Shown piece after piece: positions 8,126 to 60,692 of a stretch of DNA of 64,000 nucleotides. The notes under the pieces were generated by a model that was not told the DNA's origin, did no database searches, and saw nothing but the letters and a program-made list of their open reading frames with translations. How positions within the stretch are numbered: position 1 is the stretch's first letter; each line of letters opens with the position of its first letter. This stretch comes from Nephrocerus scutellatus (Eukaryota; Arthropoda; Insecta; Diptera; Pipunculidae). A program made the translations under genes and the position numbers. Location of the stretch: positions 72,373,536 through 72,437,535 of the forward strand of contig OX352764.1 in assembly GCA_947095585.1 (NCBI GenBank). The letters are read 5' to 3'.

Positions 8126-8171
8126 TTCCCGCAGATGGGTAAATTCGTAAATTCCTACGTAAAAGCATGCG

Positions 8172-8347
8172 TTGGGTGAGCATACGGTAAGAAGAGAGGA
8201 GGGGCTACGGAAGGCGGAAGAGGAGGGGCCGCTGAAACGCGAACCGGTCCCGTTTCACACTATTCACATTGATCACCTTGGACCGCTTCCTCGCGGTAAG
8301 AGAGGAACCTGCTATATTCTGGCAATTGTGGATTATTTTACTAAGTA
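8172..8347 (+). pseudogene. Gypsy integrase, first half (interrupted)
   Basis: The frame starting near 8172 contains PFHTIHIDHLGPLPRGKRG and ILAIVDYFTKY, the start of the integrase catalytic core with the first catalytic Asp (IDH). The upstream HHCC zinc domain is deleted. The frame is cut at 8347 by the pogo-type element at 8348-9819 and resumes in phase at 9822. Confidence 0.75.
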
Positions 8348-9819
8348 CAGGAATACAGCTAATGAAAGTTCATGCCCTGGTTATAAAATTTCAAAAGACC
8401 GTCTCATACTGTTATTAAGTGGAAATGGGAAATGCAGCAGGGGATTTCAAATTAAAACCGATGCTTGTGTACCGTGCAGAAAATCTTCGAGCTCTTAAAA
8501 ATGTTTCAAAAAACGATCTTCCAGAAATGCCATTGCGGAAAAACTGTGGTAGATATAGTCAAGGAGGGAGGCAAAGTGTGGCACAAGCTGGAACGCTCAA
8601 TAAAAAATGAGTACATTCATGAGGCCCTGAAGGAAAGGCGCACGCGAAGCCTAACGATGAACCGCTGGATCCGCGTGGGCAGGTGCCGAAAAAATTAATT
8701 AAATTCGAGTAAAGTCAAATTTTTCGTTCAGGAACGAACGAAAAAAAGCGTGGGTTACAAAATCTTTATTTGAAGATTGGTCCACCAATTATTTTTGCCC
8801 TACAACAGAACGTTATTGCAAAGAAAAGGGATTGGATTTTAAGATTTTGTTGATTTTGGATAATGCCGCTGGTCATCCGACTGGTCTTTATCATTTAAAT
8901 AAAAATGTTCAAATACCTTTTCTTCCGCCAAACACAACGTCATTGATTCAACCTATGGATCAAGGGATCATTGCCACATTTAAGGCATATTACTTACGAC
9001 GCACATTTTCGCAAGCCATAAAAGCTACACAAGGAGAAAATGCTCCTATTAGTTTATACGAATTTTGGAAGAGCTACAACATTAAAAACGTCATAGAAAA
9101 TAAAGGCGAAGCATGGCATGAAGTTACGTAAAGCAATATGAGAGCGGTTTGGAAACATATCATTACACATTGCTAAAATGATTTCGTTGGATTTGAAACC
9201 CATTTTACAGAAGTCACTATTACGATAGTGGAAATTGGACAAGAATTGGGTTTCATGGAGCTGGATTCCGCCGACATTATTCAATGCATTGAATCAAACA
9301 CCAACGAATTGGATAATGAAACACTCATCAACATAGATGAACAACGAGCCTATGAAGAACGGGAGAACAATTTAGACAAGGAAGACTGTCTTGAAGTTCC
9401 CCCACAAACATTGAGCTTGGAACAACTGACAAAAATTGTCGGGATGGTTGAAAAATTGTCCGAGTTCATCAGTGAAGTTGATCCAAAGATAGAACGTAGC
9501 CGTAATCTCCGCCGAATGTTAAAAAATGCAACTCGTTGCCACACAGAATTGTATAAAGAAACAAAAAAACAAGAGGAAACAGGTAAAAAACCTATCCTCC
9601 AATTTTTACAAAGGAAAAAATAAATTTCGAGGTTATTATTTATAATAAAGACTGAATTTGAATGCAATAATTATTCTATATTTATTTAAATTTAGCGAGA
9701 ACTTTTTTTTTTGGAACAAATTAACATTTTTTCTATGCATTGAGAACTTCAATTAGTCCGGTTTCAAATAGTAGGGAAATACGTGGAACCGATTAACCGG
9801 ACTATTCGAGGTATTCCTG
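8348..9819 (+). mobile_element. pogo/Tigger-type DNA transposon inserted in gypsy integrase
   Basis: The element is 1472 bp, bounded by the terminal inverted repeat CAGGAATAC (8348-8356) and its exact complement GTATTCCTG (9811-9819), and flanked by TA on both sides (8346-8347, 9820-9821). TA duplication and a CAG start are the hallmark of pogo/Tigger (Tc1/mariner superfamily). Removing one TA and the element leaves the host integrase frame in phase, which fixes the boundaries. It is internally deleted compared with full-length relatives of 2-3 kb. Confidence 0.85.
8395..9623 (+). pseudogene. pogo/Tigger transposase remnant
   Basis: The N-terminal part is a broken HTH region (8395-8690; ENDLPEMPLRK-like blocks in shifting frames). 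After a gap the DDE core resumes near 8735 with WVTKSLFEDW, then LDFKILLILDNAAGHPTGLY with the second catalytic Asp and NTTSLIQPMDQGIIATFKAY with the third (8832-9131). The first catalytic Asp block (DETG) is missing, a result of the internal deletion. The C-terminal tail continues after a frame break at 9228-9623 (charged, coiled-coil-like, ending ILQFLQRKK). It cannot be active. Confidence 0.75.
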
Positions 9820-9821
9820 TA

Positions 9822-10233
9822 CTGTGTCTTGAGACCAGTCAAATCGACCTGTACCCAAGGGGTTCTACACGTCCTACACGTGCTGCGGATACTTCGCGGA
9901 TACGTCCCTAAACGCATTATATCCGACCGAGGCACTTCCTTCACGTCGAGCGCATTCGAAGCTTACTGTTCAGAAAATAACATTCTAAACACGATGTCGA
10001 ATGCCATAACCAGACGTTGCCCACAAGAGCTTCTGTTCAATTTCGTTCCCCGGGACATCTTAGGACACAAGCTCCTGCTAGCCCTTCAATCATCGGATGA
10101 AGAACCACTGGAGGACATGGAAGAAGTGCGACTTGAGGCGCTGAGGCGGATCGAAGAGAACCAGTCCCAACAAACCGTCAGAAAAATTCTTAAAAAAACT
10201 CACGTTTCGCGAAAAAAAAATTACTTGCGATAA
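9822..10233 (+). pseudogene. Gypsy integrase, second half
   Basis: The frame continues from 8347 with RPVKST and then YVPKRIISDRGTSFTSSAFEAYCSENNI, which holds the second catalytic Asp (SDRG). The block containing the catalytic Glu (usually QANGQVER) is absent. The sequence jumps to a degenerate C-terminal region, LLFNFVPRDILGHKLLLAL ... EEVRLEALRRIEENQ. A deletion of roughly 60-100 codons is inferred from the family's normal spacing. Confidence 0.7.
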
Positions 10234-36801: not shown

Positions 36802-37019
36802 ATAATCATATCCGAGAAATATCGGAGCGTAAAAAAACCTCAGAGAACAAAGAATTCTCGGAGAATGAAAAAAAAACACATATAAGCATTCTGACAGGTA
36901 AATTATCTCTCCGATTACTGCGACATAAAAAAAAGAGTGCGTGTAACTTTTACGCGCGGGTGAAGTCAAACTTTTGTAACGTTTTGGCCGATATTACGTT
37001 TAAAGATGAGATGAGATGA

Positions 37020-37330
37020 CGATGAGAAATGGCTTAGTTCCAAAAAATTCCAGTCCCTATTGGACAGATCCCAGAATTCCCATAGCAACAAATCTTATAG
37101 TCGCATATTACTCCTACATTCCGAGTTTCATACGAATCGCTTGAGAAATGGCTTGGTTCCCAAAACTCCAGACCATATTGGCCAGATCCCAGAATTTCCA
37201 TAGCAACAAATCTTGTAGTCGCATACTCCTACATTCCTCCTACATACCGAATATCAAACAAATCGCTTGAAAAATTGCTTAGTTCCCATAATTCAATCAT
37301 ATAACACAAACAAAAACGTTACACAAAATC
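37020..37330. repeat. MS1 minisatellite, forward orientation, unit 1
   Basis: About 2.3 units of an ~118-bp repeat (GAGAAATGGCTTAGTTCC, CCAGTCCCTATTGG, CCCAGAATT.CCATAG, AACAAATCTTATAGTCGCAT, CCTACATTCCGA, AAATCGCTTGAGAAA). A run of ACACAAAATC-like short repeats follows to 37365. The identical block in unit 2 is 43371-43680. Confidence 0.85.
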
Positions 37331-37959
37331 CGAACGCAAAATCGGAACACAAAAACGTAACACCATTATTTTTGATACCCTACTAAATTTTCTCCTTACC
37401 GTCGCTAAAGTAGTTTCACTTCAAAAACAGCTAATTGAATTAACTCTATTATTTCTCTTTTTTGTGAATAAATGAACTTTTGTTTTCTTTTTTTACCAAG
37501 GAAAATTACTTTAGTGCGTTAATTTTTCTATTGTGTTGCGTTTTCGTTGCACGATTTGTAAAAGGATTATTTTTAAATCCGTAAAATCATGCGAGATTGA
37601 GAGTTTTAGTTAGTGTTATGATTAAATTTCGACATAAGGTCCAAATCGTTAGACGTAACTATAACTAAAAGCGATGCTTTTAGTGACGAAAGTTGATGAC
37701 TACAAGCCTTGCTACAACTTTCCATTCCACTCTATTACATTGCTATAGCATGAGTTGTAGTTGTAGTAGCGTCTATCGATTCGGACCTAAGTGTTTCATG
37801 CAGAGATGTTGAACTACGACAAATTTTAAATAAAAATTTGGAAGTGATCAGGTCGCAGGTCTAAGGGGCTTCTACCTATATACATTTTTTCAAACTTGTG
37901 TATCCCCGATTAGAGAATTTACTTGAACATTTTTAATTGTTATGGGTTATTTTAGACTA

Positions 37960-38995
37960 CACCATTCTGCAACTCCATTTCAACAAAAACTACCAGGTCA
38001 CCTTCCCCTCCAGGTCATTCTGGGACTAGGGCGCTTACCTGGAAGATGAACACATTCATTTTTACACAGACGGGTCAGCAACTGATGACGGAGTCGGCGA
38101 CGGTGTTTTCTCAAAAAAGCTAAATCTTAGACTCTTGGTCTGTCTTCCAAGTCACTGTAGTGTTTTCCAGGCTGAAATTATGGCGATCAGTGAAGCCTCC
38201 TCTTAGCTGAAGAGAAACGTCATATCCGTTAAGGATATCCGTATATTCTCGGATAGCCAAGCTGCACTAAAATCATTGGAATTAGTATCCACAAATTCAA
38301 TTTTAGCCATTAACTGCCGATCATCTCTCGTGGAGATAGCGGAACAGTTTAAAATCCACCTGTGTTGGGTGCCGGGGCATAAAGACATTCCGAAAAACTG
38401 TATTGCTGACGAACTCGCCAAGCAAGGAACTACACTACCCTTCTTACCTGAATATGGTTCTATAGGCATATATATCGCTACATGCAAATTTTTGTTAAAG
38501 CGCGATGCGAATGTAAAAACTAACTGTAGGTGGTCAAACGGTACAACTTGCATAGCGACAAGTGTTTGATCTCTTAAAAAAGATTGCATATCGGTGCTAT
38601 TGTAGGTGTCATCACTGGACACTGTCTCATAGGCATGCATGTAGTAAGTGAAATCTTTTTGAGGCTGCATGGATGAGGAGGAGGAAGAGGCTATCGTCCA
38701 TCTTCTTGTACTTGTCCAGCCCTCTCCCAAAGATATAAACTTCATATGGGAGCTTTTTTCTACAACGACACTAATGATCTCATCAACATTGACATTTGTA
38801 GTCTCCTTCACTTCATACGAAGCTCTAATTGGTTCATCGAGTAGGTGGAAGGAAATTTTCCTGATCCGTGTGGTATCACAATAGACCATTACTGGTCTGG
38901 ATCAATTGATAATTTACCACCGACCAGTGCGGACGCGTTTTTTCTGCCGCTTCGTAAAATCAACTACTTTCCTCTCCCCGTAAACGTAGCAAAAT
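37960..38995 (+). pseudogene. LINE RNase H and C-terminal domain, unit 1
   Basis: FYTDGSATDDGVGDGVFSKK (38060), VFQAEIMAIS, a stop TAG at 38204, IRIFSDSQAALKSL, VPGHKDIPKNCIADELAKQG. All four RNase H acidic residues (D, E, D, D) are present. The 3' domain follows in a shifted frame: GVITGHCLIGMHV, CMDEEEEEAIVHLL, then GAFFYNDTNDL and INYFPLPVNVAK near 38990, typical of the 3' end of R1/LOA/I-type ORF2. The long open frame on the opposite strand (38203-38889) is antisense to this. Confidence 0.75.
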
Positions 38996-39326
38996 AATTC
39001 GCGCCTACCGTGTTGAATAATTGCTCTATTAACAATAATCCGCTGTTCGTCGACCTCCCTAAGTGTTTACGCTTACCCCAACAGAATTTTGTGTGTGTGA
39101 ACATTCGTATTGATTTTCGACTGTGTAACAACTATCCTACTTATTTTGAAATAGTGCTCAAAAGCTAAACGTATATAAAAAAAACCGTTTTTGTTTCCTC
39201 TGTGTTACTGACCTATTTTTTTTTAAAGTAGTACGCGTATAGAGCTCGCCTTTGCTCTTTCCTCCTAGAGTGTCATTTACGTTGATCTTTAATTAACATA
39301 ATCATAATCATTTAATAAACTCAACT

Positions 39327-40006
39327 ATGGTATGCGGTAACGAGGCATGTACCATCAATGACGATCACGAAGAGTGGGTGCTTTGTATGGGAATCTGCGG
39401 CAAGTCGTTCCATGCACAATGCGTAGGTCTGAGAAAAAGATCTATACTATATCTAAAAGACCTTAGTGAAAATTTCAGGTTCTACTGCGACGAATGCAAG
39501 GAAGTTTCATTCGCAGACGTTCTAAGAGCCATTAAATGTAGCAATGAAGCAGTTAAAACCCTATCAATGGATAACAACACTAAAATCATACACCAACTGG
39601 CCAAATACGACTATCTTCTAAAAAATTTCCATGACCTTAATTCCACCGTTCACTCCACTAGTGATTTATACATGTCAAAATTCAACTCAATTGAGAAGCA
39701 GCTCAAAATGAGAAACCGTGCTTCTAAATAATCCATGGAAGCCATCACCAACCTCACCATCTCTAAAAAAATGACACAGCCAACACAGCCTTACAAGACG
39801 TCGTTAACAAGTTGGAATTGGTAATTGAAGCTACCAACAAACTAAACACACAATGTGATTACCTCCAGATGAGTACCTCGTCCCAATCTACCAAATCATC
39901 ACGGATCGATGCCTTATGTCTTCGATTGTCTCATCTATCCGAAATCATAAATGAACTAGTCATCAAATCTAACGACACCAACGCCAAACTCTCCGAAACG
40001 ATTTGA
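39327..40006 (+). pseudogene. LINE ORF1 with PHD finger and coiled coil, unit 1
   Basis: Residues 1-57 hold a PHD-type zinc finger: CGNEAC, then WVLCMGICGKSFHAQCVGL and FYCDEC (C4HC3 layout with the FH..C core). PHD-finger ORF1 proteins are known in jockey-superfamily LINEs of insects. A helical stretch ends at 39729; after a short frame break the helical part continues at 39812-40006. RT is missing; the sequence runs into G-rich repeat. The ~330 bp before the ATG may be its 5' UTR/promoter. Confidence 0.7.
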
Positions 40007-40019
40007 GGTAATTTTAATT

Positions 40020-40155
40020 GGTTGGTGGTCAGTGGGGGGGGGGATCTGTGGGAGGCTGGTCACTTGCCGGGAGGTTATAGAGCGGGATGTCAGTGGGCGT
40101 GGCGTCAGTGGGCGGGTGTTAACTTAGGTAGGGGTCAGTGGGATGGGGCAGCCGG
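40020..40155. repeat. G-rich repeat in unit 1
   Basis: GTCAGTGG with a run of nine G, then GTCAGTGGGCGTGGCGTCAGTG and GTCAGTGGGATGGGG. It matches 34913-35040 and, with a run of eleven G, 46370-46508. The G-run length difference explains part of the offset change between units. Confidence 0.65.
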
Positions 40156-40329
40156 TTCAAAAGTTCACAGTTTTACACTGCTCATCATTTATTTACTTAA
40201 AACACTTATGTTACATTTTTGTTCTCTTAGGTGGTAGCTCTATCTGCTTGCGAGTGCTTTTCAATTACAAAAAAATAATCTAGCAAAGATTAGAACATAG
40301 GACTCTTCAATTCAGTTAAGTGTTTCTTT

Positions 40330-41095
40330 ATGTAGGACTAAGATGTTCTTATTGAAATTCTGGGATACGGTCACTGGGGACTGGAGTTTCGGGAACGAAG
40401 CCATTTCTCAAGGCATTTTTATGAAATTCGTTATGCAGGACTAATATGCGACTATAAGACTTGTTCCTATGGAAATTCTGGAATATGGTAATAAGGGACT
40501 GGAATTTTGGGAGCTAAACCATTTCTCAAGCGATTTATATGAAATTCGGTATGTAGGACTAAGATGCGACTATAAGGTTTGTTACTATGGAAGTTCTGGA
40601 ATGCGGTCATTAGGGACTGGAATTTCGGGACCTAAGTCACTTCTCAACCGATTTGTATGAAATTCGGTATGAAGGACTAAGATGCGACTATAAGGCTTGT
40701 TCGTATGGAAATTCTGGGATACGTTCGTTAGTAACTGTAATTTCAAGACGTAAGCCATTTCTCAAGTGATTTATATGACTCAGTGTGTAGGACTAATATG
40801 CGACTATAAGGCCTGTTCCCATGGAAATTCTGGGATACGGTCATTAGTGACTGGAATTTCGGGAACAAAGTCATTTCTCAAGCAATTTTTATGAAATTCG
40901 TTATGCAGGACTTATATGCGTCTATAAGGTTTGTTACTATGGAAGTTCTGGAATGCGGTCATTAGGGACTGGAATTTCGGGATCTAAGTCACTTCTCAAC
41001 CGATTTGTATGAAATTCGGTATGAAGGACTAAGATGCGACTATAAGGCTTGTTCGTATGGAAATTCTGGGATATGGTCATTAAGGTCTGGAATTT
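40330..41095. repeat. MS1 minisatellite, reverse orientation, unit 1
   Basis: About 6.5 units of 118 bp; the anchor CTAAGATGCGACTATAAG starts at 40441, 40559, 40677, 40793, 40911 and 41029 (spacing 118, 118, 116, 118, 118). It is the reverse complement of the blocks at 37020 and 49612. It is followed at 41096-41160 by a GGGGTCTTTTT-type GT-rich tract. Confidence 0.9.
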
Positions 41096-41639
41096 TGTGT
41101 GTTTTGGGGGTCTTTTTGGTGTCTTTTTAGGGTCTTTGGGATGTTTTGGGGTTTTATGGATATCTTTTTATGATTTTTTGGCGGTTATGTGTTTTTGTTG
41201 GACGCTATATCCCCATAAAAATGATATCGGTAATCCCTATTCGCGCCTAAAATAGTTTATACAGCAACCGTTGCATCCGTAAGATAATATCCACGTCAAA
41301 ATGAGTTTAGTTAACCCTTAATCGCGCCTAAGGAAGTTTAACTTCAACAAGTGGTTTTGACAACATAACTGCTGCCCTACGAGGCAGAGACAATGACGAA
41401 ATGCTGAGTTGAGGTAAACGCAGCAGCAAGTAGCTTTGACAAATTGACTGCTGCCTTACCTGGGAAAGACAATGAGAGCGAAATGTTGAAGTGAGGTAAG
41501 CGTAGCAAAAAGTAGTTTTGACAACTGCCTTACTGCCTTACGCGGCAGAGACAATGGCATTAATCATCGTCGTGATACTCTTAAAAAATTCAAGGAGTTA
41601 GAGTCAAGCGGAACAATTGATATGTTAAAAAACCCATTA

Positions 41640-42385
41640 TAAAAATTTTTCATTTAAATTCCCAAAAAGGAGATACATATGTGTGCAATGTTTGAACCGG
41701 GTTAATATGGAAAAAATTAATATTAGAGCCCCTTTACTTCAACATTTTTAAAAAAACTGTTGTCACCGGAGATACACATGTGTAAGAAATTGTTTGGGAG
41801 CCTCCGAACTTGGGGCCCTATCACTTGCAATTTTCAATTGTATGTATTTTCATTGGAGATACACATGTATGAAGAAATGCGGGCTAAATTTGAAAAAATG
41901 TATATGGGCCTCAGACCTCATGGCCCGTTCACTCCAAAAATTTTACAAAAAGTTTTGACTATCGGAAATACATATGTATTTAAAATTTGAAGAAATCGGC
42001 CTAATTTTTAATATATCTTTTATGGGCACCCCTCGTGCCCATTTTACTTAATTTTACAAAAAGTTTTGACCATCGGAAATACAGATGTTTTTACAATTTG
42101 GAGAAAATCGGGCTAATTTTTAAAATATGTATTTGGGAACCCCTCGGGCTTCAGGGTTCGTTCAATCCAAAAATTTTACAAAAAGGTTTGTCCATCGGAG
42201 ATACACATGCATATAAAATTTGAAGAAAATCGGGTTAATTTTTTTTTGATAAATTTGTATGGACCCTCACGGGTCTCCAAAATATACACAAAAAGTGTTG
42301 TCTACCGGAGATACACATATATATTGGATTTGAAGAAAATCGGGTTAAATTTTTTATAAAAATTTTTATGGGGCCGTAGTGTGAC
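41640..42385. repeat. MS2 minisatellite, unit 1 (six cores)
   Basis: Cores of the CATCGGAGATACACATG type occur near 41763, 41850, 41958, 42072, 42192 and 42303. The matching block in unit 2 (47993-48625) lacks exactly one repeat (~111 bp). A downstream ~90-bp segment (GAGAAAACTT.AGGAAAAG.TTTTCTTATTTTGC) is itself duplicated at 42410-42502 and 42658-42750. Confidence 0.85.
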
Positions 42386-43107
42386 TTTTGCGAGCATCCA
42401 AGACCTTCCGAGAAAACTTTAGGAAAAGCTTTTCTTATTTTGCTTGTCAACATATCATTGATTGTGATTGATGATGTTCACGGACACTGTGTTGAGTGGA
42501 ATTCCCCACGATTGGCTACATAGTCAACGTACTCTTCAACTCAATTCAACTTGATGATGCATGGAAAACTTCCAAGCCATTTGAAGATTATCGGGTTAAT
42601 TTTTTTTTATTATTTGTATGGGGCCCCAGTGAGACTCTTGCGAAGCATCCGAGACCTTCTGAGAAAACTTCAGGAAAAGTTTTTCTTATTTTGCTTGTCA
42701 ACATATCGTCGTAATTGATGATGTTCATGGACACTGTGTTGAGTGGAACACCCCACAACTTGAAAGCGTTTAATCAAGGAATTCCGAATAGGTTAGTTTC
42801 TCGATTGACATTCGTCGAATTCTAACTGTGTGATTAATTTCGCAGCTTCTTTGATATTGCGTTGATTCAGATTACAGCTTCTTGTTGTACTTCGCCAGCT
42901 TGGCCTAACCGTTGACCTGAGAAAAGTTTTATTTTATTAGAGCCATTTGATATTGTTGGTGGGCTTGAATTTCTCTTGTGGCCTTGGCTTCTTCTTCTTG
43001 TTGCTGCAATTGTTCATTAACAAAATTTCATTTTTTCAGAAGATGAAGAAAGAAGCACATTTAATTATTCTATTGCATATTTATTCACAAAATATTTGCA
43101 AAATAAT

Positions 43108-43309
43108 CAAAAAAAGAGTGCGTATAACCTTTACGCGTGGTGTTAGTGAAACTTCTGTGATGTTGTGTGGCAAAATGATATTCAAGAGACCCATCAAAGA
43201 CCTTAAAAGAGCAAACAAAGACTCTTCAAAAAATTCCCTAAAATACCCGCAAAAGACCTCAAAAAGACCCTCAAAAGAAGCATAAAAACCCCAAAAGACC
43301 CTCAAAAGA
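43108..43309. repeat. Junction zone with CA-rich AAAGACCCTCAAAAG repeats
   Basis: 43108-43180 (AAAAAGAGTGCGTATAACC, TTTACGCG) is homologous to 36925-36995, the edge of the duplicated unit. It is followed by AAAGACCTTAAAAGA-like short repeats (43185-43309) that are the inverse of the GT-rich tract at 41096-41160. It is a likely site of ectopic recombination. Confidence 0.65.
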
Positions 43310-44310
43310 AAGTGAAGTGATACTTTTGTAACGTTTTGGCCGATATTACGTTTAAAGATGAGATGAGATGACGATGAGAAATGGCTTAGTTCCAAAAAAT
43401 TCCAGTCCCTATTGGACAGATCCCAGAATTCCCATAGCAACAAATCTTATAGTCGCATATTACTCCTACATTCCGAGTTTCATACGAATCGCTTGAGAAA
43501 TGGCTTGGTTCCCAAAACTCCAGACCATATTGGCCAGATCCCAGAATTTCCATAGCAACAAATCTTGTAGTCGCATACTCCTACATTCCTCCTACATACC
43601 GAATTTCAAACAAATCGCTTGAAAAATTGCTTAGTTCCCATAATTCAATCATATAACACAAACAAAAACGTTACACAAAATCCGAACGCAAATCGGAACA
43701 CAAAAACGTAACACAATTATTTTTGATACCCTACTAAATTTTCTCCTTACCGTCGCTAAAGTAGTTTCACTTCAAAAACAGCTAATTGAATTAACTCTAT
43801 TATTTCTCTTTTTTGTGAATAAATGAACTTTTGTTTTCTTTTTTTTCCAAGGAAAATTACTTTAGTGCGTTAATTTTTCTATTGTGTTGCGTTTTCGTTG
43901 CACGATTTGTAAAAGGATTATTTTTAAATCCGTAAAATCATGCGAGATTGAGAGTTTTAGTTAGTGTTATGATTAAATTTCGACATAAGGTCCAAATCGT
44001 TAGACGTAACTATAACTAAAAGCGATGCTTTTAGTGACGAAAGTTGATGACTACAAGCCTTGCTACAACTTTCCATTCCACTCTATTACATTGCTATAGC
44101 ATGAGTTGTAGTTGTAGTAGCGTCTATCGATTCGGACCTAAGTGTTTCATGCAGAGATGTTGAACTACGACAAATTTTAAATAAAAATTTGGAAGTGATC
44201 AGGTCGCAGGTCTAAGGGGCTTCTACCTATATACATTTTTTCAAACTTGTGTATCCCCGATTAGAGAATTTACTTGAACATTTTTAATTGTTATGGGTTA
44301 TTTTAGACTA

Positions 44311-45346
44311 CACCATTCTGCAACTCCATTTCAACAAAAACTACCAGGTCACCTTCCCCTCCAGGTCATTCTGGGACTAGGGCGCTTACCTGGAAGATGA
44401 ACACATTCATTTTTACACAGACGGGTCAGCAACTGATGACGGAGTCGGCGACGGTGTTTTCTCAAAAAAGCTAAATCTTAGACTCTTGGTCTGTCTTCCA
44501 AGTCACTGTAGTGTTTTCCAGGCTGAAATTATGGCGATCAGTGAAGCCTCCTCTTAGCTGAAGAGAAACGTCATATCCGTTAAGGATATCCGTATATTCT
44601 CGGATAGCCAAGCTGCACTAAAATCATTGGAATTAGTATCCACAAATTCAATTTTAGCCATTAACTGCCGATCATCTCTCGTGGAGATAGCGGAACAGTT
44701 TAAAATCCACCTGTGTTGGGTGCCGGGGCATAAAGACATTCCGAAAAACTGTATTGCTGACGAACTCGCCAAGCAAGGAACTACACTACCCTTCTTACCT
44801 GAATATGGTTCTATAGGCATATATATCGCTACATGCAAATTTTTGTTAAAGCGCGATGCGAATGTAAAAACTAACTGTAGGTGGTCAAACGGTACAACTT
44901 GCATAGCGACAAGTGTTTGATCTCTTAAAAAAGATTGCATATCGGTGCTATTGTAGGTGTCATCACTGGACACTGTCTCATAGGCATGCATGTAGTAAGT
45001 GAAATCTTTTTGAGGCTGCATGGATGAGGAGGAGGAAGAGGCTATCGTCCATCTTCTTGTACTTGTCCAGCCCTCTCCCAAAGACATAAACTTCATATGG
45101 GAGCTTTTTTCTACAACGACACTAATGATCTCATCAACATTGACATTTGTAGTCTCCTTCACTTCATACGAAGCTCTAATTGGTTCATCGAGTAGGTGGA
45201 AGGAAATTTTCCTGATCCGTGTGGTATCACAATAGACCATTACTGGTCTGGATCAATTGATAATTTACCACCGACCAGTGCGGACGCGTTTTTTCTGCCG
45301 CTTCGTAAAATCAACTACTTTCCTCTCCCCGTAAACGTAGCAAAAT
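44311..45346 (+). pseudogene. LINE RNase H and C-terminal domain, unit 2
   Basis: Duplicate of 37960-38995 (offset 6351), with the same in-frame TAG at 44555 and only rare substitutions (one changes Ile to Met on the antisense frame). The shared disabling mutations show it was dead before duplication. Confidence 0.75.
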
Positions 45347-45677
45347 AATTCGCGCCTACCGTGTTGAATAATTGCTCTATTAACAATAATCCGCTGTTCG
45401 TCGACCTCCCTAAGTGTTTACGCTTACCCCAACAGAATTTTGTGTGTGTGAACATTCGTATTGATTTTCGACTGTGTAACAACTATCCTACTTATTTTGA
45501 AATAGTGCTCAAAAGCTAAACGTATATAAAAAAAACCGTTTTTGTTTCCTCTGTGTTACTGACCTATTTTTTTTTAAAGTAGTACGCGTATAGAGCTCGC
45601 CTTTGCTCTTTCCTCCTAGAGTGTCATTTACGTTGATCTTTAATTAACATAATCATAATCATTTAATAAACTCAACT

Positions 45678-46357
45678 ATGGTATCCGGTAACGAGGCATG
45701 TACCATCAATGACGATCACGAAGAGTGGGTGCTTTGTATGGGAATCTGCGGCAAGTCGTTCCATGCACAATGCGTAGGTCTGAGAAAAAGATCTATACTA
45801 TATCTAAAAGACCTTAGTGAAAATTTCAGGTTCTACTGCGACGAATGCAAGGAAGTTTCATTCGCAGACGTTCTAAGAGCCATTAAATGTAGCAATGAAG
45901 CAGTTAAAACCCTATCAATGGATAACCACACTAAAATCATACACCAACTGGCCAAATACGACTATCTTCTAAAAAATTTCCATAACCTTAATTCCACCGT
46001 TCACTCCACTAGTGATTTATACATGTCAAAATTCAACTCAATTGAGAAGCAGCTCAAAATGAGAAACCGTGCTTCTAAATAATCCATGGAAGCCATCACC
46101 AACCTCACCATCTCTAAAAAAATGACACAGCCAACACAGCCTTACAAGACGTCGTTAACAAGTTGGAATTGGTAATTGAAGCTACCAACAAACTAAACAC
46201 ACAATGTGATTACCTCCAGATGAGTACCTCGTCCCAATCTACCAAATCATCACGGATCGATGCCTTATGTCTTCGATTGTCTCATCTATCAGAAATCATA
46301 AATGAACTAGTCATCAAATCTAACGACACCAACGCCAAACTCTCCGAAACGATTTGA
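45678..46357 (+). pseudogene. LINE ORF1 with PHD finger and coiled coil, unit 2
   Basis: Duplicate of 39327-40006 with the same frame break. Codon 3 is TCC (Ser) against TGC (Cys) in unit 1, losing a Cys that precedes the finger. Two further changes (Asn to His, Asp to Asn) lie in the helical part. It is non-functional without the rest of the LINE. Confidence 0.7.
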
Positions 46358-46682
46358 GGTAATTTTAATTGGTTGGTGGTCAGTGGGGGGGGGGGGATCT
46401 GTGGGAGGCTGGTCACTTGCCGGGAGGTTATAGAGCGGGATGTCAGTGGGTGTGGCGTCAGTGGGCGGGTGTTAACTTAGGTAGGGGTCAGTGGGATGGG
46501 GCAGCCGGTTCAAAAGTTCACAGTTTTACACTGCTCATCATTTATTTACTTAAAACACTTATGTTACATTTTTGTTCTCTTAGGTGGTAGCTCTATCTGC
46601 TTGCGAGTGCTTTTCAATTACAAAAAAATAATCTAGCAAAGATTAGAACATAGGACTCTTCAATTCAGTTAAGTGTTTCTTT

Positions 46683-47448
46683 ATGTAGGACTAAGATGTT
46701 CTTATGGAAATTCTGGGATACGGTCACTGGGGACTGGAGTTTCGGGAACGAAGCCATTTCTCAAGGGATTTTTATGAAATTCGTTATGCAGGACTAATAT
46801 GCGACTATAAGACTTGTTCCTATGGAAATTCTGGAATATGGTAATAAGGGACTGGAATTTTGGGAGCTAAACCATTTCTCAAGCGATTTATATGAAATTC
46901 GGTATGTAGGACTAAGATGCGACTATAAGGTTTGTTACTATGGAAGTTCTGGAATGCGGTCATTAGGGACTGGAATTTCGGGACCTAAGTCACTTCTCAA
47001 CCGATTTGTATGAAATTCGGTATGAAGGACTAAGATGCGACTATAAGGCTTGTTCGTATGGAAATTCTGGGATACGGTCGTTAGTAACTGTAATTTCAAG
47101 ACGTAAGCCATTTCTCAAGTGATTTATATGACTCAGTGTGTAGGACTAATATGCGACTATAAGGCCTGTTCCCATGGAAATTCTGGGATACGGTCATTAG
47201 TGACTGGAATTTCGGGAACAAAGTCATTTCTCAAGCAATTTCTATGAAATTCGTTATGCAGGACTTATATGCGTCTATAAGGTTTGTTACTATGGAAGTT
47301 CTGGAATGCGGTCATTAGGGACTGGAATTTCGGGATCTAAGTCACTTCTCAACCGATTTGTATGAAATTCGGTATGAAGGACTAAGATGCGACTATAAGG
47401 CTTGTTCGTATGGAAATTCTGGGATATGGTCATTAAGGTCTGGAATTT
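46683..47448. repeat. MS1 minisatellite, reverse orientation, unit 2
   Basis: Duplicate of 40330-41095 (offset 6353), same six anchors, followed by the GT-rich tract at 47449-47513. Confidence 0.9.
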
Positions 47449-47992
47449 TGTGTGTTTTGGGGGTCTTTTTGGTGTCTTTTTAGGGTCTTTGGGATGTTTT
47501 GGGGTTTTATGGATATCTTTTTATGATTTTTTGGCGGTTATGTGTTTTTGTTGGACGCTATATCCCCATAAAAATGATATCGGTAATCCCTATTCGCGCC
47601 TAAAAAAGTTTATACAGCAACCGTTGCATCCGTAAGATAATATCCACGTCAAAATGAGTTTAGTTAACCCTTAATCGCGCCTAAGGAAGTTTAACTTCAA
47701 CAAGTGGTTTTGACAACATAACTGCTGCCCTACGAGGCAGAGACAATGACGAAATGCTGAGTTGAGGTAAACGCAGCAGCAAGTAGCTTTGACAAATTGA
47801 CTGCTGCCTTACCTGGGAAAGACAATGAGAGCGAAATGTTGAAGTGAGGTAAGCGTAGCAAAAAGTAGTTTTGACAACTGCCTTACTGCCTTACGCGGCA
47901 GAGACAATGGCATTAATCATCGTCGTGATACTCTTAAAAAATTCAAGGAGTTAGAGTCAAGCGGAACAATTGATATGTTAAAAAACCCATTA

Positions 47993-48625
47993 TAAAAATT
48001 TTTCATTTAAATTCCCAAAAAGGAGATACATATGTGTGCAATGTTTGAACCGGGTTAATATGGAAAAAATTAATATTAGAGCCCCTTTACTTCAACATTT
48101 TTAAAAAAACTGTTGTCACCGGAGATACACATGTGTAAGAAATTGTTTGGGAGCCTCCGAACTTGGGGCCCTATCACTTGCAATTTTCAATTGTATGTAT
48201 TTTCATTGGAGATACACATGTATGAAGAAATGCGGGCTAAATTTGAAAAAATGTATATGGGCCTCAGACCTCATGGCCCGTTCACTCCAAAAATTTTACA
48301 AAAAGTTTTGACCATCGGAAATACAGATGTTTTTACAATTTGGAGAAAATCGGGCTAATTTTTAAAATATGTATTTGGGAACCCCTCGGGCTTCAGGGTT
48401 CGTTCAATCCAAAAATTTTACAAAAAGGTTTGTCCATCGGAGATACACATGCATATAAAATTTGAAGAAAATCGGGTTAATTTTTTTTTGATAAATTTGT
48501 ATGGACCCTCACGGGTCTCCAAAATATACACAAAAAGTGTTGTCTACCGGAGATACACATATATATTGGATTTGAAGAAAATCGGGTTAAATTTTTTATA
48601 AAAATTTTTATGGGGCCGTAGTGTG
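47993..48625. repeat. MS2 minisatellite, unit 2 (five cores)
   Basis: Duplicate of 41640-42385 with one ~111-bp repeat missing between the third and fourth cores. The downstream GAGAAAACTT duplication is retained. Confidence 0.85.
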
Positions 48626-49551
48626 ACTTTTGCGAGCATCCAAGACCTTCCGAGAAAACTTTAGGAAAAGCTTTTCTTATTTTGCTTGTCAACATATCAT
48701 TGATTGTGATTGATGATGTTCACGGACACTGTGTTGAGTGGAATTCCCCACGATTGGCTACATAGTCAACGTACTCTTCAACTCAATTCAACTTGATGAT
48801 GCATGGAAAACTTCCAAGCCATTTGAAGATTATCGGGTTAATTTTTTTTTATTATTTGTATGGGGCCCCAGTGAGACTCTTGCGAAGCATCCGAGACCTT
48901 CTGAGAAAACTTCAGGAAAAGTTTTTCTTATTTTGCTTGTCAACATATCGTCGTAATTGATGATGTTCATGGACACTGTGTTGAGTGGAACACCCCACAA
49001 CTTGAAAGCGTTTAATCAAGGAATTCCGAATAGGTTAGTTTCTCGATTGACATTCGTCGAATTCTAACTGTGTGATTAATTTCGCAGCTTCTTTGATATT
49101 GCGTTGATTCAGATTACAGCTTCTTGTTGTACTTCGCCAGCTTGGCCTAACCGTTGACCTGAGAAAAGTTTTATTTTATTAGAGCCATTTGATATTGTTG
49201 GTGGGCTTGAATTTCTCTTGTGGCCTTGGCTTCTTCTTCTTGTTGCTGCAATTGTTCATTAACAAAATTTCATTTTTTCAGAAGATGAAGAAAGAAGCAC
49301 ATTTAATTATTCTATTGCATATTTATTCACAAAATATTTGCAAAATAATCAAAAAAAGAGTGCGTATAACCTTTACGCGTGGTGTTAGTGAAACTTCTGT
49401 GATGTTGTGTGGCAAAATGATATTCAAGAGACCCATCAAAGACCTTAAAAGAGCAAACAAAGACTCTTCAAAAAATTCCCTAAAATACCCGCAAAAGACC
49501 TCAAAAAGACCCTCAAAAGAAGCATAAAAACCCCAAAAGACCCTCAAAAGA

Positions 49552-50170
49552 CTCCTCAAAAGACCCTCAAAAAAACCCCAAAAGACACCCAAATGTCCAT
49601 TTTAAATTTCGTTTAGAAGTGACTTAGTTCCCAAAATTCCAGTCCCTAATGACCGTATCGCAGAGTTTCTATAGGAACAAGTCTTATAATCGCATCTTAG
49701 TCCTACATACTGAATTTCATAGAAATCGCTTGAGAAATTGCTTAGTTCAAAAAATTCTAGTCCCTAATGACCGTATCCCAGAATTTCCTTAGGAACAAGT
49801 CTTATAGTCGCATCTTAGTCATACATACCGATTTTCATATAAATCGCTTAGGAAATTACTTCGTTCCCGAATTTCCAGTCCCTAATGACCTTATCCAGAA
49901 TTTCCATAGGAACAAATTTTATAGTCGCATATTTGTCCTACATTCGGAATTTCATAGAAATCGCTTGAGAAATTTCATAGTTACAAGAATTCAAAAATGT
50001 AACACAAAATCGCAACACAAAATCATAACGCTAGTTCATAACGCAAATTGCAACACAAAATCATAACGCAAAATCTAACACAAAATAGTTTTTGAAAATG
50101 TGCTAAATTTTCACCTCAACGCCGATAAAGCAATTCCACTTAGAAAAACATATGCTATATTTCTTTCAAC
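49552..50170. repeat. CA-rich tract and forward MS1 arm after unit 2
   Basis: AAAGACCCTCAAAA repeats to 49597, then three forward MS1 units (from ~49612 to 49980), then ACACAAAATC-type short repeats and GTGCTAAATTTTCACC (50100), the same order as 37020-37400. With the inverted tract and arm at 46683-47513 it forms a long inverted pair around a ~2-kb centre. Confidence 0.75.
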
Positions 50171-54490: not shown

Positions 54491-54539
54491 TTGTGTTACT
54501 ATTACTACGTATAAGAAGGGTTGCATGACGTCCTAGTGT

Positions 54540-54883
54540 TCCTGCAGCAGCAGTGCAACAAAATTACCCAGTTTGCCCTGATAGCTAAACCGCTAAAAAA
54601 CTTATTGAAAAATAATGTAGATTTCAAATGGGATGCTTTATGTGAAGAAGCTTTTGTCATTTTAAAAGAAAAATTAATCTCCTCACCAATATTAATTTAC
54701 CCAGATTTCAAAGAAAAATTTCTCATCACTACCGATGCAAGTGATTTTGCTATAGGAGCCGTATTATCTCAAGGAAAAATAGGCCAAGACAAGCTTATAT
54801 ATTACGTCAGCCGAACCTTAAATGTTGCTGAAACAAAATATACCACTACAGAAAAAGAGTTATTAGCAATAATATTTAGCTGA
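54540..54883 (+). pseudogene. pol: Errantivirus RT tail and RNase H start
   Basis: FALIAKPLKNLLKNNVDFKW, CEEAFVILKEKLISSPILIY and ITTDASDFAIGAVLSQGKIG, then ETKYTTTEKELLAIIFS, the RT-RNase H junction with the first RNase H acidic residues (TDAS, EKE). A stop at 54881 and a jump to integrase-leading sequence indicate deletion of the rest of RNase H. Confidence 0.8.
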
Positions 54884-55025: not shown

Positions 55026-56066
55026 ATGATAACCTCTTTGCCTGTACATCTTACAGAAAAGGCAACTATAGAAAACCACATTTTACAGATCCGAAATTTT
55101 TGTCAAAAGGAAAAAGTTAAAAGTATCGATATATCAATTCCTCCCCAAGAACCATTTTTTGAATATTTAAAATCATCCATAACACATGCATTTTCTCAAA
55201 TAAAGCTCGAAATTTATTTGTATTCGGACAACCGAATCATTCTCACAGATCCACAAGAGATCGAAAAAGTTTTGCATGACTTCCATAATTCGCCTTTCGG
55301 AGGTCACCAAGGAACCTCAAGAACACTCAAACGTATCCGAACTAGATATTATTGGCATACTTTGGTCAAAGACACAATGGAATTCATTCGAAAATGCGAA
55401 TCCTGCCAAAGAAATAAGCTAAGGCAAAATCCACGAATACCAATGAAAGTCACGACGACTCGCACAAGTCCATTTGAGCGTGTAGCTTTGGACATTGTCG
55501 GGCCACTTCCAACTAGCTATGAGGATAACAAATATATACTTACCTTTCAGGACGATTTGACAAAGTTCACTGAAGCTATGCCAAACGCTGAAGCTTCGAC
55601 TGTGGCGCGTTGTTTCATAGAAAAAATAATATGTCGTTTTGGACCACCGGATGCGGTGTTAACTGATCAAGGTACTAATTTCTTGAGTAACCTTTTTAAG
55701 GAGGTTTGTAAGATTTTAAAAATCAAAAAGGTACAGACCACTCCATACCATCCGCAAACTAACGGAGCCTTAGAGCGTAGTCACCGAACGCTAGCCGAAT
55801 ATCTCAGGCACTATGTCGACAAAGACCAGCTTTCATGGGACACATGGTTACCATATTCGATGTTTGTATATAACACGACACCTCATAGCAGCACAAAATT
55901 TAGTCCCTTTGAACTCATTTATGGATTTCCTGCACGGATCCCCAATTCCATAAACCGAAGTCCACAAGTCTCTTACAATTATGATAACTATGCTTCAGAG
56001 CTAAGAGCCCGTTTACAACACGGTTATCAGATAGCCAAACAAGTTTTACTGGACAAAAAAGAGTAG
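55026..56066 (+). CDS. Errantivirus integrase (uninterrupted frame)
   Basis: 346 codons. The zinc domain has H87, H94, C124 and C127 (HHCC layout), and the catalytic core has D156 (ALDIVG), D214 (VLTDQG) and E250 (GALE), with the canonical 35 residues between the last two. The C-terminal part includes WLPYSMFVYNTTPH and FSPFELIYGFPARI. It would insert the viral cDNA into the genome. The ATG at 55026 is only the first Met in the open stretch; the natural protein is cut from Gag-Pol. A TAG at 56065 ends it, followed by a degenerate Pol tail to ~56250. No disabling change is seen in the core. Confidence 0.85.
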   Translation: MITSLPVHLTEKATIENHILQIRNFCQKEKVKSIDISIPPQEPFFEYLKSSITHAFSQIKLEIYLYSDNRIILTDPQEIEKVLHDFHNSPFGGHQGTSRTLKRIRTRYYWHTLVKDTMEFIRKCESCQRNKLRQNPRIPMKVTTTRTSPFERVALDIVGPLPTSYEDNKYILTFQDDLTKFTEAMPNAEASTVARCFIEKIICRFGPPDAVLTDQGTNFLSNLFKEVCKILKIKKVQTTPYHPQTNGALERSHRTLAEYLRHYVDKDQLSWDTWLPYSMFVYNTTPHSSTKFSPFELIYGFPARIPNSINRSPQVSYNYDNYASELRARLQHGYQIAKQVLLDKKE

Positions 56067-56300: not shown

Positions 56301-56310
56301 TTCATGTCAG
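56301..56310 (+). promoter_or_regulatory. Splice-acceptor-like site before the FHA ORF
   Basis: TTCATGTCAG after a pyrimidine-rich stretch (TTTTATCTTCTAC) ends one base before the ATG at 56312. In insect errantiviruses the env message is made by splicing to an acceptor just before env, so an acceptor here would give the FHA ORF its own message. Inferred from motif and position only. Confidence 0.4.
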
Positions 56311-56311
56311 A

Positions 56312-56740
56312 ATGGAGTCAATAGATTATCTGCCCGACACGTACTGGATTCTGTACAGCATAGTCTCAGACTACGAGATTCCTTTACGAAAGGGTCTCTC
56401 AAAAATCGGGAACGGCTATTCGAATCGTATATCCATTCCCACTGAACTCGTTTCAATTATACACGCTATAATCGAAATAGATGACTGTGAGGAATATGTT
56501 ACGGTCAAGGATTGCGAGGGCTCCAGTGGTACTTACGTCAACGGGGTGCAGCTTAGGCCTGGGGAAACCGCCGCGTTGAGAACCGGGGACATTCTGAGTC
56601 TGGGGATTCAACAAGAAGATTTCAGCCTAAATTTATGCCCCGCATACGTCGTAAGACGGCGACGACCTTACTCTGAAGCAGGACTCCTACGAGGATGGTT
56701 TCGTGATCTACAGCTTCAGATGCTTGGACATGAATCATAG
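56312..56740 (+). CDS. FHA-domain protein between integrase and env
   Basis: 142 codons, no stops. Residues ~10-105 fit a forkhead-associated domain: LRKGLSKIGNGYSNRISIP, VSIIHAIIEI, VTVKDCEGSSGTYVNGVQL and LRTGDILSLG. FHA domains bind phosphothreonine peptides in DNA-damage and signalling proteins. G33, S48, H51, G73, T74 and N77 are kept, but the phosphate-contacting Arg of the GR motif is N34 and the Asn of the usual SSNGT is S72, so classical binding may be weakened. A basic RRRR patch follows at 115-118. GC-rich third positions contrast with pol and env. It is not a known errantivirus gene; capture from the host is inferred. A nested degenerate gene fragment is the alternative, but the open frame argues against it. 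Confidence 0.75.
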   Translation: MESIDYLPDTYWILYSIVSDYEIPLRKGLSKIGNGYSNRISIPTELVSIIHAIIEIDDCEEYVTVKDCEGSSGTYVNGVQLRPGETAALRTGDILSLGIQQEDFSLNLCPAYVVRRRRPYSEAGLLRGWFRDLQLQMLGHES

Positions 56741-56897: not shown

Positions 56898-56908
56898 CCC
56901 CTACGCAG
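56898..56908 (+). promoter_or_regulatory. Splice-acceptor-like site before env
   Basis: TCTCTATCTCCCCTACGCAG ends at 56908, four bases before the env ATG at 56913, with a strong pyrimidine tract. This is the position expected for the subgenomic env message. The donor would lie in the missing 5' part. Confidence 0.5.
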
Positions 56909-56912
56909 AAAA

Positions 56913-58319
56913 ATGAAAAGCGTAACAATTTGGTGTTTTATGTTCACCATGGCGCTTGGACATCTGAATTTCACGCCAATAAAACAAGGTTCTGGAATAT
57001 ATTTCGAGGAATTAGACCGGGTCAACTTATTTTCAAATGAATGGAAAATAATAACATACTACGATTTGGAAGGTCTATTAACCACAACTAAACTTATGAG
57101 CCAATACACATCCGAAATCTCCAAATTGTGCAACGGACTAAATAACGACACGCAAATATCACATTTGTGCAAAGGTACGGTGGTGGAGCTTAATCATGTA
57201 ATCGAGGACATTCTACAAAAATGCAGCCTCCTAAACTTGGAAGTAAACACGAAACCAAGGGCGAAAAGAGCATTATTAAATGCGGTAGGAATGATCAGCA
57301 AATCTCTTTTCGGTACTTTGTCAGAAGATGATGCCAACTCTTATGACAGGCAAATTAATAAATTACAACACAACGAAGAGCATCTAAGGAACCTAATAAA
57401 AAATCAGACATATATCATGGGGACAACCATCAACATCTTCAATAGAACGCAGCAAGTTAGAGACAGTCAAATTAAAACGCTGAACACGAAATTCTCCTCA
57501 ATAATAAAACTTCTAGACGATTGCACTAATAGTGTTCAAAACGAGCGGCTAGTAAACGAACTAGAATCGCTAATATCCTATTCGACTTTAGATATTTTGC
57601 ATCACCAAAACTTATTGAATGAAGTTATCGACTCAGTAACTGAGGTACGTCACGGTAAACCTCACCCGGCCATCATAACTCCAGAACAGTTGGAGACCGT
57701 CCTTTCAGCTATGCTTAGAGAAATTCCTAGCAATACCAAACTTCCAATACTAATACGGCACAACGATATACTACCTCTTTATAAGATTAGTACGGTAACA
57801 TCTCCGATCCAATCTAAAAGGATAATATATGAAATTAAATTACCGATTCCCTTCAAAGAAATCTACCAACTTTACAAAATTTTACCATTTCCCACTAATA
57901 TTCAAAATGACTTCCTCTATATCCAACCCAAAATGAACAACGTTATAATAGACTTTGATAAAAAAAACTTCTATGATCTTACAATCGAAGAAATAAACAA
58001 ATGCACTGCACAAACTGACTCCCTGCTATGTCCGATTACTCATCCTCTTTATGACTTTAATTCTAACCAGGATAATTGTGAAATACAATTATTACGAAGA
58101 GACACGCATCCTTCGGCTTGCCAAGCGAAGCAATCACCTTTATCCGTAGTTTGGATACAGCTCTCTCAACCTGGCAAATGGTTATTGTCCGCTAAAAGCG
58201 AGTATATCATGGACGAAATTTGTGACCAAAAATTAACAACGCATAAATTTCTGGGAGCAGGAATTGTAGAATTCACAGGCAAATGCTGTCAGCGTAGTAG
58301 AGATCTGGTCAAAATTTAG
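56913..58319 (+). pseudogene. env: Errantivirus envelope gene, main part
   Basis: 468 codons: a signal peptide (residues 1-16, hydrophobic), a basic proprotein-convertase-like site RAKR at 116-119, then a fusion-peptide-like ALLNAVGMISKSLFG and a long helical region with N-linked glycosylation sites. This layout is shared with baculovirus-F-like Env proteins of insect errantiviruses. The frame is lost about 30 codons after the start of a 274-bp internal duplication: a 10-bp loss near 58305 puts a stop at 58317, before any transmembrane segment. As it stands the product would lack a membrane anchor. Confidence 0.85.
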
Positions 58320-58756
58320 ACAGCACTCTTTCTTTTATTCCGATGATAAACTTAACTCTCTTAAAATCTAAAATTAGCACAGCTTCTACAAAAGTAAATC
58401 CTATTAAATTGCTTAAATACGATGAAAATAATAATCTCGCGGAAATTTCTTACCAAGTAGATTTGTTAAAGACGAGTATATCATGGACGAAATTTGTGAC
58501 CAAAAATTAACAACGCATAAATTTCTGGGAGCAGGAATTGTAGAATTCACAGGCAAATGTTATCTGCGTAGTAGAGATCTGACAATATATGGTCAAAATT
58601 TAGACAGCACTCTTTCTTTTATTCCGATGATAAACTTAACTCTCTTAAAATCTAAAATTAGCACAACTTCTACAAAAGTAAATCCTATTAAATTGCTTAA
58701 ATACGATGAAAATAATAATCTCGCGGAAATTTCTTACCAAGTAGATTTGTTAAAGA
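58199..58756 (+). repeat. Tandem duplication inside env (274 + 284 bp)
   Basis: 58199-58472 and 58473-58756 are near-identical. The first copy lacks 10 bp after GATCTG (58305), where the second has ten extra bases ending TATATG, which shifts its frame. Otherwise only a handful of substitutions separate them, so the duplication is recent. Confidence 0.9.
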
Positions 58757-59049
58757 AAGAGGAAGGAAAAGGTTTGCAAAATTTAGATAAGCACGATGTT
58801 CATCATTATACTGTAATCTATAGCTTGACTTTACTGAAATGCATAATCCTGTTGTTCATTTATAAATACAATTCTAAACTGAAAGCCATTGTAACTGAGA
58901 TTAGACAGCAACCAACAGAGAATGAAAATAAACCAAAACCCAATGAGGAAATTATCAATGAAGTTTTTGTTGATCAATTTATTGTACAAGAAGTAGATAA
59001 TAACAATACTAACTCAAACCCAAGCCCAAGATTTACATTGTCGTCATAA
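58483..59049 (+). pseudogene. env: Errantivirus envelope gene, C-terminal part
   Basis: The second copy of the duplicated segment keeps an open frame to 59049. It carries a single hydrophobic transmembrane segment (YTVIYSLTLLKCIILLFIYK) followed by a ~60-residue cytoplasmic tail rich in Asn, Glu and Pro. It is out of register with the upstream part because of the duplication and deletion, and the Met at 58483 is not a natural start. The locus does not encode one continuous Env. Confidence 0.8.
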
Positions 59050-59607: not shown

Positions 59608-59610
59608 TGT

Positions 59611-60692
59611 AGTGATCGCACTACATGTCGCCTCTCAAAATCAACTCAACTCGAAATCAACTCTCCTAAATACGATTCTTCTTTCCTACGGCGTCACAAT
59701 ACCGAAAGTCCGCCAAGCACGTTACAGCGCTCACTTTTCATGTCAAACATAAATTACAATGTTTATGAGGTCGTCACCCGATATCCGTTACATTCAATAG
59801 CATTTAAATATACATTCAATAGCAATACACATAATTCATGCGATCACTATGCCTTCAATGCTATGTGCATACAGCACTGCAGCTATAACAAATAGCAATG
59901 GCAATGCAATTCATGCGATCGTTCTATGCTGTGTATATACAGCACTGCAGCTATAGCATTCCCATTGTTCCATACCGAACGTAATGCTGTACGACGGCGG
60001 ATACACACAAAATCCAAAGTCAAGTACGTTTATGCATTGTAGGTATAGAGAGCAAGGGTGAATGGACATCGTCAACAGCGACAGCTGGATGTATGAACTA
60101 TATCCAGAGCCGTTGACGAATGTAATGCTGACTCATTTATATTGCATTTGTATTGTGTAATAATTTTCCGGCTTAATCGTTTAGCCTAATGTTGTTGGGT
60201 AATAATTTAATTGCTTACTCAGTTAATAGATCATCGCACTATAACTGGAGCATAAATTAATTGATTTATGGATATTGGGAAATATCGCTGATGAGTGCAT
60301 TTCCATAAACTGCGTTGGTTTGGGTACAAAGATCGTTCGGATTGGAGGGTATAAAAAGGAAGTGAAAACCGGTTGAAAAGTCAGAGTTAATCTAATTGTA
60401 AAGCTACGAGCATCCTAGTAGAGGTCGCAGCCACGCTAAAGACAGCGGGCCTCCCTAGGATTTAAAAAATAAAGTTTGTATAAAATATAAAATTAACTAG
60501 CAGAGGTCGCAGCCACGCCAAAGACAGCGGGCCTCTCTAGTAGTGTATAAAAAAACAAATAAATAAATAATACAACTTAAATTAAAACAACCGTTCTTTT
60601 TATTAAAAACATTAACTCTCCGCCCACATAGCTCTTCCCTTGGTCTCACAAGGAAGCACGGCTGTACACGTCGGCGTTAAAACAATAACACT
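59611..60692 (+). mobile_element. Putative errantivirus 3' LTR
   Basis: It starts AGTGAT, like 17.6/297-class LTRs, right after the polypurine tract, and the proposed end AACACT gives an imperfect inverse. Inside are a TATAAAA box at 60350-60356, an initiator-like TCAGAG 31-33 bp later (60381) and AATAAA signals (60467, 60556). Direct repeats of ~45 bp (CTAG.AGAGGTCGCAGCC...) are at 60415 and 60497. At ~1.08 kb it is longer than relatives, so the right boundary is uncertain and a nested insertion is possible. The frame at 59557-59895 is not a gene. Confidence 0.45.

Follow-up and report, generated by a model that had tools for sequence, protein, structure and literature searches.

A conserved FHA-domain gene between pol and env of an errantivirus-like endogenous retrovirus family of the fly Nephrocerus scutellatus

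Background

Vertebrate retroviruses capture oncogenes, and insect endogenous retroviruses (ERVs) are usually described as carrying gag, pol and env only. Here we analyze a 64,000-nucleotide stretch of the genome of the dipteran Nephrocerus scutellatus (contig OX352764.1, positions 72,373,536–72,437,535 of the forward strand; hereafter the window), in which an errantivirus-like ERV carries an additional gene, coding for a protein with an FHA domain, between pol and env. The FHA frame is almost certainly a selected viral gene. The element resembles oncogene-capturing vertebrate retroviruses in being a retrovirus with a cellular-type gene; it differs from them in that the FHA gene has been selected across subfamily splits and that no recent cellular source has been identified.

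The closest described systems are the errantiviruses, such as gypsy and ZAM. As portrayed in PMC12992720, they share with the present element an integrase of the H2C2-rve type, a Baculo_F-type envelope (env-F), long terminal repeats (LTRs) with TG..CA ends, a 4-bp target-site duplication, an acceptor-like site before env, and the emergence of env-deficient derivatives; unlike the errantiviruses covered there, the present element has an extra FHA gene in the pol-env interval. Extra open reading frames (ORFs) are known in LTR elements of rotifers (PMC5408684). These resemble our case in having a non-envelope ORF, for a DEDDy exonuclease or a GDSL esterase, and differ in the protein families, in the hosts and in the extra frame being ORF3; FHA is absent from the main text of that paper. 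Among the papers listed in searches of the open-access (PubMed Central) literature, none describes an LTR element that carries an FHA gene.

Results

Copies of the FHA gene and selection on its frame

The genome that holds the window comprises 613 Mb in 9 contigs. In most searches only the best candidates were scored; in the DNA search with the FHA gene these were the best 40 of 107, and copy counts are lower bounds. At least 40 near-full-length copies of the gene, 93–100% identical, are spread over six contigs (a 41st match, consisting of 166 bases inside the duplication of copy L019, was excluded). An env gene lies 3' of the FHA gene on the same strand, within 1.2 kb, in 39 of the 40 copies (in L038 env is inverted), integrase lies 5' of it in 31 copies, and the FHA frame is intact in 31. 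Recurrence of the conserved frame in 40 copies places it beyond chance. In a search from env, an FHA match was found upstream in 33 of 40 scored copies (the best 40 of 104 candidates) and in 14 of the 15 youngest env copies. The search from integrase gave a more mixed result, with an FHA match downstream in 19 of 40 copies (the best 40 of 295).

Variants among the 40 FHA copies were classed as shared, if present in at least two copies, or private, if present in one. The near-identical copies L028–L030 were counted once, as was the pair L026/L027, and pieces of integrase and env below 85% identity were removed. Private changes mostly followed insertion, and shared changes mostly arose during multiplication of the element. 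In the FHA frame, the shared variants comprise 15 replacement and 30–31 silent changes, the private ones 47–49 and 17, respectively (Fisher test, 3.8e-5; 1.6e-5 in a second computation). The corresponding site-scaled replacement/silent ratios are 0.15 for shared and 0.85 for private variants over the whole frame and 0.06 and 0.65 for residues 20–105, compared with 0.10 and 0.67 for integrase and 0.09 and 0.54 for env. No such contrast was seen in four of five control frames, including the other two sense frames; it was weak (p=0.006) in the fifth, an antisense frame whose third positions coincide. Because the shared variants are mostly silent and the private ones are not, the FHA frame was under selection while the element spread. 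Among the 31 copies with intact frames, the between-subfamily dN/dS is 0.12–0.23, falling to 0.045–0.105 for residues 20–105. The first-pass annotation of the window had taken the intact frame as a hint of selection before decay and had proposed dN/dS between copies as a check. Selection is borne out by this check and by the silent excess among shared variants; on its own the intact frame would have proved little, since the window copy has an integrase, and long parts of env, that can be read just as well.

The FHA sequences group the copies into three sets, L016–L030 (which includes the window copy), L031–L043 and L044–L055. On average, two copies differ by 2.8%, 1.4% and 0.15% within these sets, respectively, and by 6.3–7.9% between sets. 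With a between-subfamily dS of 0.14–0.23, the gene is older than the split of the three subfamilies, and the initial suggestion of recent acquisition is not supported. The ends of the LTRs were sought in 10 of the 12 copies of the young set, L044–L055. The LTR of this set is about 1.13 kb long, starts with TGTAGTGATC and ends with ACA. Seven LTR pairs, aligned over 849–1139 columns, show 0–3 mismatches and at most 3 gap columns, three of these pairs being identical, and three further pairs, covering 238–264 columns only, show 0–2 mismatches. A 4-bp target-site duplication is present in L044, L047, L048 and L055, all four copies with both outer ends seen, and a primer-site sequence in nine of the ten 5' pieces; the two leaders inspected (L047 and L055) contain a 377-codon open frame at the position of gag. 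On the strength of the near-identical LTR pairs, target-site duplications and primer sites, we conclude that the youngest FHA-carrying subfamily transposed recently. Four of its members (L050–L053) have lost most of env through a common deletion, which measures about 1.3 kb as judged by position; their FHA frame is intact.

Nine of the 40 copies have no integrase, and in eight of these a common unspliced stretch stands in its place, so that the eight look like a single sublineage with an internal deletion. At the start of this stretch, in L018, is a frame that resembles a protease, with a best Pfam score of 23.2 bits (E=1e-4), which is below the cut-off. The possibility that the integrase-less copies are reverse-transcribed spliced RNA was rejected because of the common unspliced stretch in eight of the nine (the ninth is L025). 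The integrase-less copies L018, L019, L022 and L026–L030 retain FHA and env at several places in the genome.

Structure of the window element

The features of the element in the window, all on the forward (+) strand, are as follows.

54521–54883, +: RNase H fragment of pol, broken copy (Pfam RT_RNaseH_2, E=1.5e-27)
55026–56066, +: integrase part of pol, with H2C2 zinc-binding region and rve core (Pfam, E=3e-19 and 6e-11)
56309–56310, +: splice-acceptor-like AG with pyrimidine tract, 1 nt 5' of the FHA ATG
56312–56740, +: FHA gene, putative accessory gene, 142 codons
56402–56605, +: Pfam FHA match, residues 31–98 (fold matches span about residues 10–110)
56411–56413, +: codon 34, Asn; Arg in phosphothreonine-binding FHA domains
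56654–56665, +: RRRR, residues 115–118, putative nuclear localization signal
56907–56908, +: splice-acceptor-like AG 5' of the env ATG
56913–58319, +: envelope gene, Baculo_F type, N-terminal 468 codons (Pfam PF12259, E=2.3e-27)
58193–58756, +: env-breaking tandem duplication of about 280 bp (repeats 58193–58472 and 58467–58756)
58483–59049, +: C-terminal env fragment, 3' of the duplication
59608–60684, +: 3' LTR (TGTAGTGATC...CGTTAAAACA), delimited by comparison with the LTR pairs of the young copies

The observation made at this locus in the first-pass annotation is confirmed. The FHA frame starts with ATG and runs unbroken for 142 codons; it matches the FHA family PF00498 with 46.2 bits (curated cut-off, 20.7; E=6.1e-12). 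Pfam matches on both flanks place it between integrase and env in the same orientation, and it is richer in GC (47.4%) than integrase (39.0%) and env (36.9%). The env of this copy is indeed broken, by the tandem duplication listed above. The four quoted FHA motifs are all present, except that the first reads IGNG and not the IGR typical of FHA domains. The element is truncated at its 5' side, recognized pol starting at about 54.5 kb, and a 3' LTR alone was found for it, without a 5' LTR. Its integrase (H2C2 and rve) and Baculo_F env are those of errantiviruses and other insect ERVs, and the LTR pair, short target-site duplication and primer site are seen on the young copies. Relatives of the envelope are P0001 (39% identity) and P0002 from Trichoplusia ni (25%).

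The predicted fold of the FHA product is an FHA beta-sandwich that matches solved FHA domains, among them those of MDC1, Rad53 and CHK2; it was obtained by alignment-based prediction, single-sequence prediction being poor. The best match among solved sequences is VPS64 (27.3 bits, E=3.5e-5); CHFR reaches 25.5 bits, and SLMAP itself only E=0.18. VPS64 is presumably a relative of SLMAP, a link that is also supported in this analysis. The bacterial contigs yielded 14 ordinary FHA matches at 30–38%, which served only as alignment guides; 12 of them were aligned, without L009 and without L005, which consists of domains in tandem.

Phosphate-binding residues

The conserved Arg of FHA domains binds phosphothreonine, and its loss abolishes binding (PMC11326605); MDC1 requires both R58 and K73 (PMC9355967). 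In the viral protein, the Arg of the IGR motif is replaced: residue 34 is Asn in 39 of 40 copies and Ser in one, with R or K in all 12 bacterial domains compared. A basic residue is likewise missing after Ser48, where Ile49 is found in 40 of 40 copies; its correspondence to K73 of MDC1 is by motif, without a residue-level alignment to MDC1, and two of the 12 bacterial domains have Gly there. The position before Gly-Thr, usually Asn, is Ser in 39 copies and Arg in one. Other positions are retained, Ser48 in 39 copies and His51, Gly73, Thr74 and Asn77 in all 40. The proposal that the product reads phosphothreonine in DNA-damage or cell-cycle signaling is therefore not supported, the required residues having been replaced in the fetched copies. 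With the phosphate-binding residues replaced and the rest of the domain strongly conserved, the FHA domain has probably been retained for a role other than ordinary phosphothreonine reading.

A precedent is the FHA domain of afadin, which is reported to lack both of the basic residues responsible for phosphothreonine binding and to bind PDZ1 of Scribble without phosphate (PMC9355967). The viral domain resembles it in the missing basic residues; afadin differs in being a cellular multidomain protein, and the likeness implies no common partner. By analogy with afadin, and in view of the loss of the Arg, phospho-independent binding is the somewhat more plausible mode for the viral product. Downstream of the domain, the basic stretch RRRR (residues 115–118) is kept in 38 of 40 copies and may direct the product to the nucleus.

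Splice-acceptor-like sites

In all 40 copies, GTCAGA immediately precedes the FHA frame, followed by ATG in 39 copies and by ATA in L037. Pyrimidines make up 15–18 of the 20 positions before the AG, and the tract varies among the subfamilies. An acceptor pattern 5' of env was found in 27 of 40 copies, and a weaker donor-like sequence, GTAAGC, occurs in the two leaders inspected. Env of insect retroviruses is expressed from a spliced RNA (PMC12992720); in view of this and of the acceptor-like AG before the frame, the FHA gene would probably be translated, in the manner of env, from a spliced subgenomic RNA of its own.

Origin of the FHA gene

Acquisition from a cell would be the obvious assumption and is likely a priori; the first-pass annotation had proposed a host gene as the source. 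The search found no close relative: in a set of 5.8 billion proteins, no relative was detected within the size-matched range with either a one-sequence or a nine-sequence query. The cellular FHA genes of the same genome include SLMAP, NBS, SNIP1, kanadaptin, one kinesin-type gene and others, of which the nearest are SLMAP-like frames, with about 30% identity over 78 residues or 40% over 53 (phmmer, at most 22.9 bits); this cellular-source search did not cover intron-split exons, longer proteins or other hosts. In a tree of 39 domains the viral clade sits on a long branch with no supported neighbor. With no close relative found in these searches and no placement in the tree, capture from a host gene is not supported; a SLMAP origin is not upheld either, as the tree does not join the viral clade to SLMAP. 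Retro-insertion of a host mRNA into this provirus alone was rejected, the gene being at the same place in other copies.

An FHA-domain protein is also known from the Melanoplus sanguinipes entomopoxvirus (BFVD Q9YVJ8, 215 residues), a structural match with E=4.5e-5 and 14% identity; it resembles our case as an FHA protein of an insect virus and differs in belonging to a large DNA virus. A candidate viral relative on a viral contig (L001) was discarded: it is a weak match within a long phage-baseplate-like frame in which Pfam finds nothing significant, and it has the KIGNGYSN motif in common with the viral FHA protein by chance. The env and integrase queries gave no match to the viral contigs.

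Fifteen further FHA frames, many of them in long open frames, lie on contig C6 at 12.8–14.5 Mb and 2.07 Mb (L077–L083, L086–L088, L090, L091 and L093–L095). They group in the tree with the SLMAP gene of contig C4 (L084; PDB 6ar0, E=4e-42) and appear to be a SLMAP-like expansion on one small contig.

Discussion

Taken together, these observations suggest that the FHA frame probably serves a single errantivirus-like ERV family (Ty3/gypsy group, Baculo_F envelope) as a bona fide accessory gene. Its product, translated through the acceptor 1 nt before the ATG, would be a stand-alone adaptor with the FHA fold and a short basic tail, perhaps nuclear, whose FHA surface would bind a protein of the host or of the virus without recourse to the usual pocket for phosphothreonine, much as afadin binds Scribble PDZ1. 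Since the env-deleted copies L050–L053 keep the frame intact, the gene does more than assist env, and its most likely role would be the tuning of a host pathway or factor in favor of replication of the element, not an envelope function. That a family active until recently has an additional gene under selection indicates that insect ERVs can carry accessory functions as complex vertebrate retroviruses do. The FHA gene offers a small, testable protein by which the element may act on its host, as well as a natural example of an FHA domain that is conserved although the Arg is gone.

Several observations weigh against an accessory gene of this kind. The FHA frame is broken in nine of the 40 copies. 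Seven of the 40 scored env copies have no FHA match upstream. Downstream of integrase an FHA match is missing in 21 of the 40 copies scored, because of which close relatives without the FHA gene seem to exist. Taken as a whole, the FHA frame (0.15) is constrained somewhat less than integrase (0.10) or env (0.09), and the tail after residue 105 is without clear constraint (10 replacement and 8 silent shared variants, 10 and 5 private ones, p=0.72). The acceptor score, by which 1.15% of the AGs in the window match the FHA AG and 0.39% the env AG, is crude, and the FHA site was examined post hoc. In nine copies, a search of the first 900 bases past the primer site (fewer where the piece ended) revealed no GTRAGT donor.

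Some observations would fit a functionless passenger, derived from a fragment of host mRNA that was picked up once and has since been replicated with the element: the frame is small and stands alone, its GC content exceeds that of its neighbors, and about half of the scored integrase relatives are without an FHA match. We nevertheless consider a passenger extremely unlikely, given the silent excess among shared variants in the FHA frame but not in the other two sense frames, and the retention of the gene by three subfamilies and by the env-deleted sublineage. It is also improbable that the product is a canonical phosphothreonine reader, a Chk2- or MDC1-like decoy competing with the checkpoint and cell-cycle FHA proteins of the host. 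The nearness of the fold to MDC1, Rad53 and CHK2 and the retained Ser48, His51, Gly73, Thr74 and Asn77 would suit such a decoy; the replacement of the Arg, the invariant Ile49 and the loss of the Asn before Gly-Thr argue against it, as FHA-dependent interactions are lost once the Arg is substituted (PMC11326605).

More weight, albeit still limited, belongs to a role inside the virus, in which the product would bind Gag, integrase or the Env tail and aid assembly or transport in the cell. Kinesin-3 FHA domains function in transport, the gene is positioned, and perhaps spliced, like env, and a phospho-independent surface could serve such contacts. However, the FHA gene is retained after loss of env and also in the integrase-less sublineage, which depends on helper proteins anyway; we lean slightly toward a host-directed rather than a virus-internal target. 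A mimic of a SLMAP-type FHA domain that acts on the STRIPAK/Hippo pathway is very unlikely. VPS64 is the best solved-sequence match and the top matches in the own genome are SLMAP-like, but the scores are weak, CHFR is close behind VPS64, SLMAP itself scores poorly, the tree shows no joining, and no other set was sampled as heavily as the SLMAP-like one. Equally unlikely is an elaboration of the accessory-gene reading, in which an FHA gene that has lost the phosphate-binding Arg and has its own acceptor, like the accessory genes of complex vertebrate retroviruses, would antagonize a host pathway, and the SLMAP-like expansion on C6 would be the host's side of the conflict.

Other observations

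A scan with Baculo_F gave 2472 first-look candidates, and no virus-type FHA match lies within 6 kb of any of the 72 best matches, so that other copies with an envelope are without the gene. The 87 virus-type FHA matches used here are the 40 fetched copies and 47 sorted by hand from 112 rows, most of these 47 unchecked by sequence. Several of the 72 scored Baculo_F matches lie in open frames of more than 2000 codons, as if another family had fused pol and env in one frame.

Elsewhere in the window, frames at 6503–10233 resemble fragments of another LTR element, with one weak integrase match at 8250–8348 (39% over 33 residues, E=0.005). Positions 36960–49600 hold a tandem segmental duplication of about 6.35 kb, which contains arrays of a 118-bp repeat and whose sampled parts agree at 99–100%.
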